Assembly: GCF_042100115.1 (NCBI RefSeq)
Contig: NC_091272.1
Coordinates: 6,200,001 to 6,264,000 of the forward strand
Origin: Alternaria dauci
Lineage: Eukaryota > Ascomycota > Dothideomycetes > Pleosporales > Pleosporaceae
DNA length: 64,000 nt
Reading direction: 5' to 3'
This document shows positions 59,193 to 59,675 of the stretch, piece after piece. The notes under the pieces were generated by a model. It worked only from the letters and a program-made list of their open reading frames with translations. It was not told where the DNA came from and ran no database searches. The stretch's first letter is position 1; each line of letters starts with the position of its first letter. Both the position numbers and the translations under genes were made by a program.

Positions 59193-59412
59193 GGTGCCCA
59201 GATGGATATGGGAATGTACCTGCTCTCAACGTAGCAGCGAGGTTGCGGTTGTACTGTGTCAAACTCACTTCACGACAAGCGCCCATCCGCAAATATCTTT
59301 CCTTTGTGCATGTAAGAAGTCCATCGCAGAATAAAAAAGAATGCGTGTCAACCTACTAGACCAGTGCAAGGTGGTTCTAGGCACGGCGCAAGATTCTGCA
59401 AAAAAGAAGATG
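59193..59412. terminator. 3' flanks of the Thg1-like gene and of tRNA-Pro
   Basis: On the minus strand, a TCTTCTTTTTT run (T6 at 59,405-59,400) lies just past the tRNA-Pro 3' end and is a normal RNA polymerase III terminator. Confidence 0.6.
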
Positions 59413-59431
59413 GGGCCTGACCGGGATTCGA

Positions 59432-59484
59432 CTGTGCGCTTATTAGTAAAGCGTTCGATGTCGAACCTTGATGGGTGAACTTAC
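59432..59484 (-). other. Spliceosome-type intron inside the tRNA-Pro T-loop (intron B)
   Basis: 53 nt: 5' GTAAGTTCACCC, branch TTACTAATAAG, 3' GCACAG. It splits box B between T54 and T55. Internally it contains GGTTCGACATC, near the box B consensus GGTTCGANTCC, within a small inverted repeat (GGTTCGA / TCGAAC). Confidence 0.75.
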
Positions 59485-59528
59485 ACCCGGGGCCTCCTGC
59501 AGAATAGGCATTTGACTGATGTCAACCC

Positions 59529-59583
59529 CTATCATCACTGTTAGCAGATGTTGGGGAGCTGATGTGGTTGTGGATGAACTTAC
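59529..59583 (-). other. Spliceosome-type intron inside the tRNA-Pro anticodon (intron A)
   Basis: 55 nt: 5' GTAAGTTCATCC, branch site CTGCTAACAG, 3' GATGATAG. The size, donor, branch and branch-to-AG distance match the protein-gene introns in this window. It separates anticodon U34 from G35, a position where tRNA-splicing endonuclease is not known to cut. Confidence 0.75.
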
Positions 59584-59666
59584 AAAGCAGGAATCATACC
59601 ACTAGACCATCAGGCCGATTACCGCTCTGAGAGAGCTGATCGATGAAAAGTGGCAAAGCTTTTGGC

Positions 59667-59675
59667 TTTATATAA
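59667..59675 (-). promoter_or_regulatory. TATA box upstream of tRNA-Pro
   Basis: On the minus strand TTATATAAA lies 51-59 bp upstream of the mature tRNA 5' end. It could place TFIIIB, or support polymerase II initiation, of the interrupted tRNA gene. Confidence 0.5.

Follow-up and report, generated by a model that had tools for sequence, protein, structure and literature searches.

How can a nuclear tRNA gene be interrupted by introns of the kind found in protein genes when, to our knowledge, the textbook view has tRNAs maturing without the messenger-RNA splicing machinery? The question is raised by a tRNA-Pro(UGG) gene, here termed Pro-UGG-1, in a 64-kb stretch of the Alternaria dauci genome (C1:6200001-6264000, hereafter the window), which carries two inserts that begin with GTAAGT and end with AG in addition to an ordinary tRNA intron. 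We conclude, with a probability of roughly 0.9, that these inserts are genuine spliceosomal introns of the U2 type, that the nuclear tRNA gene holding them works, and that this fungus has at least 27 tRNA genes of this kind.

A tRNA-Pro(UGG) gene in four exon pieces

Pro-UGG-1 occupies positions 59413..59616 of the window on the minus strand and consists of four exon pieces and three introns. Exon 1 (59584..59616, 33 nt), which contains the A box TGGTCTAGTGG (59609-59599), ends at tRNA position 34 and is followed by a 55-nt spliceosome-type intron (59529..59583; GTAAGT..CTAAC..ATAG, with the branch-site adenosine 12 nt before the end) that splits the anticodon at 34|35. The next piece is the GGG of positions 35-37 (59526..59528), three nucleotides that separate this intron from an ordinary 24-nt tRNA intron at 37/38 (59502..59525), which is not GT-AG and contains no CTRAY. 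Positions 38-54 (59485..59501) lead into the second spliceosome-type intron (59432..59484, 53 nt; GTAAGT..CTAAT..ACAG, with the branch-site adenosine 11 nt before the end), which interrupts the T loop at 54|55, and positions 55-73 (59413..59431) complete the gene. The initial annotation had described these same three inserts, with their lengths and motifs; both direct reading and a script bore this description out, and the junctions 59584/59528, 59526/59501 and 59485/59431 proved exact on rechecking. Also on the minus strand, a T6 run resembling an RNA polymerase III terminator lies at 59400..59405, and upstream of the gene are a CATCGA (59640..59645), which is a copy of a CATC[AG]A motif, and, as judged by eye, the TATA-like TTATATAAAG (59666..59675).

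Deletion of the inserts had been said to leave a tRNA with a perfect acceptor stem, anticodon stem and T arm and with anticodon UGG, and it does: the joined RNA of 72 nt scores 28/28 in a test that counts 20 pairs in the acceptor, D, anticodon and T stems plus eight invariant bases (the pair-and-invariant score), and ARAGORN identifies it as tRNA-Pro(TGG). When only the two GT-AG inserts are removed, ARAGORN miscalls the remainder as Gln(TTG), and in the unspliced window sequence the gene receives neither an ARAGORN call nor an Rfam tRNA match, as expected of a gene in pieces. The strict pattern GTAAGY..CTAAY..YAG occurs three times on the two strands of the 64 kb, compared with 0.1 times in resampled sequence, and two of the three matches are exactly the Pro-UGG-1 inserts. 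These two introns had been picked out for their looks in the initial annotation; the decisive control for the observation is that the genome contains another 26 genes built in this way.

Two other features of the window were recorded. A tRNA-Glu(CUC) gene (L081; 48361-48458, plus strand) is of the ordinary type, with a 27-nt intron at 37/38, and is missed by ARAGORN without its intron mode. The window also encodes a TFIP11-like protein that is 86% identical to a protein of Alternaria atra and 85% identical to one of A. arbusti, its best match reaching 89%.

Genome-wide census of interrupted tRNA genes

Across the genome (34.9 Mb in 10 contigs), at least 27 tRNA genes contain a total of 38 GT-AG or GC-AG introns. 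They encode tRNAs for proline (two Pro-UGG, one Pro-CGG and three Pro-AGG), glutamine (three Gln-CUG and two Gln-UUG), serine (three Ser-GCU and one Ser-CGA) and arginine (four Arg-ACG, one Arg-UCG and one Arg-CCU), with one gene each for Leu-CAA, Ile-AAU, Thr-UGU, Asp-GUC, Gly-CCC and Lys-CUU. Sixteen genes have a single such intron and 11 have two, at 12 distinct sites in the D arm (after the 9th, 10th, 11th, 13th, 15th or 20th base), the anticodon (34|35) and the T arm (52|53 to 57|58). None of the 38 is located at 37/38, and a separate 37/38 intron is also present in 24 of the 27 genes. In the Pro-AGG genes, two introns flank an exon of 10-11 nt that is essentially the A box.

The census combined surveys with the Rfam tRNA model, with 5'-half patterns, with B-box plus terminator patterns and with T-loop intron patterns, followed by the reading of chosen loci, namely those that looked tRNA-like by eye among the matches listed (out of totals of 200 for the B-box plus terminator patterns and 123 for the T-loop intron patterns), so that the figure of 27 genes is a minimum. 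The systematic search for T-loop introns stopped short of the 57|58 site, and Phe- and Lys-type families were surveyed via the A box only. By eye, the candidates L073-L076, matched by the T-loop pattern, are probably protein-gene introns and were rejected.

All of the Pro genes found (6/6) and all of the Gln genes found (5/5) are interrupted in this way. An insert-free Pro or Gln gene was not found in the genome with 5'-half patterns allowing two mismatches, and would have escaped only if it were more than two bases off the pattern used. In the general surveys, all genes found for Ser-GCU (3/3), Arg-ACG (4/4), Arg-UCG (1/1) and Ser-CGA (1/1) likewise carry GT/GC-AG introns. Insert-free copies exist in seven families: Ile-AAU, Asp-GUC, Lys-CUU, Arg-CCU and Gly-CCC in an ARAGORN survey (84 distinct calls, miscalls included), and Leu-CAA and Thr-UGU by reading.

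The initial annotation had reasoned that several intact Pro-UGG genes elsewhere, together with an absence of spliced reads, would speak for a pseudogene. A DNA search returned Pro-UGG at one other place, and this sole other Pro-UGG gene found has GT-AG introns of its own at 34|35 and 55|56 together with its own 37/38 intron. Its acceptor stem differs from that of Pro-UGG-1 at three pairs, each altered on both sides, and its two GT-AG introns are 62% and 59% identical to those of Pro-UGG-1, about the level of unrelated introns (mean 58%). Relatives were not found in the prokaryote and viral collections, each searched with one pattern.

Several loci encountered during these surveys are of separate interest. 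Near the end of contig C3 (G000:C3, approximately 3324-3430 kb) there is a mitochondrial-looking tRNA cluster with repeated and inverted copies (L003, L004, L010-L012, L017, L020-L025 and L160-L162), which is either mitochondrial DNA misjoined to the contig or a large insertion into the nuclear genome. Each of the tRNA-Met genes L089 and L113 is preceded by an apparent tandem repeat of part of the gene's 5' end. In three tRNA-like loci (L088, L103 and L105), possibly miscalled, ARAGORN places an insertion of roughly 94-99 nt close to the anticodon loop; GT-AG ends were not seen in these. A dispersed AT-rich repeat family (CTAATAGCTAGCGATCCCTATTA..) is present in many copies, for example at G000:C1:4032066.

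Spliceosome-like features of the introns

The 38 introns are 48-60 nt long (mean 52.3). At the 5' end, 36 have GT and two have GC, the commonest 5' site being GTAAGT (16 introns), and the 3' ends are CAG in 25, TAG in 12 and AAG in one; GT/GC and AG were required by the script that located the cuts. A CTRAY branch site with its A 8-16 nt from the intron end is present in 37 of the 38, compared with a mean of 2.1 and a maximum of 7 in shuffled introns. This count carries some bias, eight introns having been first noticed via CTAAY patterns and two chosen in the initial annotation, and among the 28 introns selected without a branch-site criterion CTRAY is present in 27. The one intron that lacks a good branch site is in the D arm of Gln-UUG-2, a gene whose T-loop intron is the one that ends in AAG. 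By comparison, the 37/38 introns of the same genes have neither GT/GC-AG ends (0/24) nor a CTRAY branch site (0/24). Seventeen strict intron-like stretches elsewhere in the genome have a mean length of 51.5 nt, although the pattern itself bounds this length and none of them is a proved intron.

Other classes of intron were considered. Group I and group II introns have a catalytic core of a few hundred nucleotides, and are ruled out by the length of 48-60 nt. Introners would be almost identical copies inserted at many sites, and such an origin was rejected because no sequence is common to the introns: in the first 20 genes, 239 randomly drawn pairs, each combining introns of genes for different amino acids, have a mean identity of 58% and a maximum of 68%.

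We consider it very unlikely that the tRNA-splicing endonuclease removes these inserts as ectopic tRNA introns by recognising bulge-helix-bulge (BHB) structures, as in archaea, Cyanidioschyzon merolae and nucleomorphs. Excerpts of two papers on such systems document introns outside 37/38 in the D and T arms, in some cases several per gene (PMC4090602, PMC3978253), and in these respects they resemble the introns described here. They differ in being recognised by their BHB structure and cut by the endonuclease, and the ectopic introns of the Guillardia nucleomorph measure 3-24 nt in the excerpted account (PMC4090602), as against 48-60 nt with GT/GC, CTRAY and AG here. None of the 28 GT/GC-AG introns covered by a simple BHB test (out of 38) passed it, compared with 1.3% of shuffles, but neither did any of 17 introns at 37/38, so that the test fails to tell the two kinds apart. 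The canonical nuclear tRNA introns, according to the same excerpts, lie at 37/38 and are cut by the Sen endonuclease (PMC4090602). The 24 genes that have such an intron would use the Sen pathway too, whereas the GT/GC-AG introns differ from the canonical ones in site, in mean length (52 versus 18.5 nt) and in their spliceosomal signals.

Joined exons form tRNAs under selection

Presented with the 27 unspliced genes, ARAGORN assigned the correct amino acid and anticodon to none (0/27), and its intron mode produced one call among the 27, which was wrong. With the GT/GC-AG introns removed the correct calls rose to 23/27, the four miscalls including Pro-UGG-1, and with all introns removed to 27/27. 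ARAGORN tolerates shifted cuts (20/20 genes were still called at -1, 0 and +1), and the pair-and-invariant score is sharper: at the GT/GC-AG cut it is 28/28 in all 27 genes, and the number of genes keeping 28/28 falls to 12 at a shift of -1, two at -2, none at -3 and six at +1, the test being lax on one side, where four genes retain the full score at +4 to +6.

Comparison of paralogues reveals selection on stem pairing. In nine paralogue pairs the exons are 88-100% identical and introns at matching sites are 50-86% identical. Across the acceptor and T stems of six paralogue pairs there is one one-sided change and no broken pair; five of these pairs show two-sided pair changes (3, 2, 2, 2 and 1), and the sixth shows none. 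Insert-free paralogues run continuously over the junctions, as seen for Leu-CAA (L100 versus L106) and for five Lys-CUU genes (L049-L051, L120 and L121 versus L164), and by eye the joined Ser-GCU genes resemble the D arm of the insert-free Ser-AGA/UGA genes.

The presence of insert-free copies in seven families would suit a reading of the interrupted genes as pseudogenes or decaying copies with insertions. The full cloverleaf score in 27/27 genes, the two-sided pair changes among paralogues with common intron sites and the failure to detect an insert-free Pro or Gln gene with patterns allowing two mismatches all argue against this, and an assembly artefact is at odds with introns that differ at every locus, which is not what a single assembly error would produce; we regard decay or artefact as extremely unlikely. 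The intron-bearing tRNA genes instead look alive, judging from their sequence. Within the scope of this assembly and of the searches made in it, failure to remove the introns would leave the fungus with no cytosolic tRNA-Pro or tRNA-Gln, and it is this apparent necessity, together with the selection on the exons, that suggests that the introns are removed in vivo.

RNA polymerase III-like signals and the B box

The tetranucleotide TTTT is absent from all 38 introns, compared with a mean of 5.6 introns containing it in shuffles, none of 500 of which reached zero. The deficit is weaker when measured against other intron-like stretches, of which 15/115 defined loosely (p 0.011) and 2/17 defined strictly (p 0.09) contain TTTT; among the 37/38 introns, 1/24 does. 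In 24 of the 27 genes, a run of T5 or longer follows within 45 nt. The CATC[AG]A motif lies no more than 60 nt upstream of 16/27 genes, a count made with no chance control, and by eye it also precedes insert-free tRNA genes.

The T loop holds the B box, and 15 of the introns break it. TTCRA is found inside 13 of these 15, compared with 4 of the other 23 (Fisher p 3e-5, with paralogues not independent); counted by family, it is present in five of seven breaking families, and a shuffled intron contains TTCRA 12% of the time. The stricter TTCRANNC is found in 6/15 breaking introns and 1/23 others (p 0.0096), and a B-box profile applied to the first 20 genes likewise separates breaking from other introns (p 0.003), with a shuffle p of at most 0.015 for four of the eight breaking introns then known when taken singly (Pro-UGG and Gln). 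Intron 2 of Pro-UGG-1 belongs to this group, splitting the exonic B box while itself holding the B-box-like GGTTCGACATC (59457..59467, minus strand; 6.4 bits, shuffle p 0.015), which is weaker than the real B boxes of the genome (minimum 7.6 bits). A second solution is seen at the edge of the T loop, where all four introns keep a B box of 15-17 bits spanning the 3' splice site. The Leu-CAA and Asp T-loop introns have no TTCRA and keep no B box across the splice site. Taken together, the lack of TTTT and the presence of TTCRA in B-box-breaking introns fit genes transcribed by RNA polymerase III.

The spliceosome is normally coupled to RNA polymerase II, which lends some appeal to an arrangement in which spliceosomal introns lie in a working transcript that comes from polymerase II, with the tRNA excised from it later. 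Against it speak the lack of TTTT in the introns, the T5 runs after 24 of the 27 genes, the B box retained over the 3' splice site in all four T-loop-edge introns and the enrichment of TTCRA in those introns that break the T loop, and we consider this arrangement quite unlikely.

Some further elements were noted near these and other tRNA genes. Gln genes are followed by an isolated 3' end of an insert-free Gln gene at L096 and by a hairpin resembling a B box at L151, and the B-box copies within T-loop introns may have come from such elements. In four tRNA-Phe genes (L154, L157, L158 and L165) the 3' trailers resemble one another, with what may be a hairpin that ends in TTCGAAC ahead of a T run. 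Arg-ACG-1 (L114, C5:646530-646900) is closely followed by a Gly-GCC gene; no T5 run separates the two, which are possibly on one transcript.

A predicted two-step maturation

If the inserts are spliceosomal introns of polymerase III genes, maturation might proceed as follows. RNA polymerase III would transcribe each gene via the A box and a B box that is intact, rebuilt or intronic. The spliceosome would act first, in the nucleus, recognising GUAAGU and CUAAC and taking out the D-arm, anticodon and T-arm introns, and with these gone the tRNA could fold, its ends would be trimmed by RNase P and RNase Z, and the tRNA-splicing endonuclease would act second, after the spliceosome. End trimming by RNase P and RNase Z and cleavage by the tRNA-splicing endonuclease need formed tRNA arms; we place the spliceosome first because the D, T and anticodon arms would be needed before the ends are trimmed and the endonuclease cut is positioned. 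In Pro-UGG-1, the two kinds of intron that would be handled in these two steps are separated by only the three nucleotides 35-37.

The initial annotation had proposed a single pre-tRNA dependent on both the spliceosome and the tRNA-splicing machinery, and our sequence comparisons support this proposal and widen it to 38 introns at 12 sites in 27 genes, a 37/38 intron being present as well in 24 of these. A large share of the nuclear tRNA set has probably come to depend on the spliceosome: all Pro and Gln decoding, as well as the AGY-Ser and ACG-Arg tRNAs, would rely on an obligatory route through the spliceosome and then the endonuclease, and the promoter-breaking introns have probably been kept because of a replacement B box that they carried with them or were born with, such that a spliced-out intron would form part of its gene's own polymerase III promoter.

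Relation to known systems

By its title, a 1993 paper by LoBuglio reportedly describes mRNA introns in the nuclear 18S rDNA of deuteromycetes, which would likewise be mRNA-type introns in a structural RNA gene of the fungal nucleus, there for rRNA and here for tRNA. Among open-licence PMC papers searched by title and the start of the abstract, none was seen to describe a spliceosomal intron in a tRNA gene of the nucleus; subscription papers and preprints fall mostly outside this collection, and an earlier report is possible. The main text of PMC4090602 contains no word beginning with "spliceosom", and excerpts of four other papers (PMC3978253, PMC11782384, PMC4494063 and PMC12730881) mention no spliceosomal intron in a nuclear tRNA gene. 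A close parallel in these sources is the U6 snRNA gene of Schizosaccharomyces pombe, which, according to an excerpt, has an mRNA-type intron thought to derive from reverse splicing (PMC10484740). The two cases would share a spliceosomal intron in the gene for a small non-coding RNA that RNA polymerase III transcribes, but the yeast case concerns one intron in a spliceosomal RNA, whereas here there are 38 introns, 15 of them breaking the B box, in 27 tRNA genes, with 37/38 introns in addition.

The genes described here appear to break, on a genome-wide scale, the rule that nuclear tRNA introns are confined to 37/38. If this reading is correct, the spliceosome would accept short, structured and presumably uncapped polymerase III transcripts, and would cope with the internal exons of 10-11 nt in the Pro-AGG genes. 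Where standard finders leave tRNAs out of an annotation, introns of this kind may be what hides them, and the occurrence of paralogues with the same exons, with and without the insert, would open intron gain to study. For the fungus itself, it would mean that translation capacity is tied to the activity of the spliceosome.
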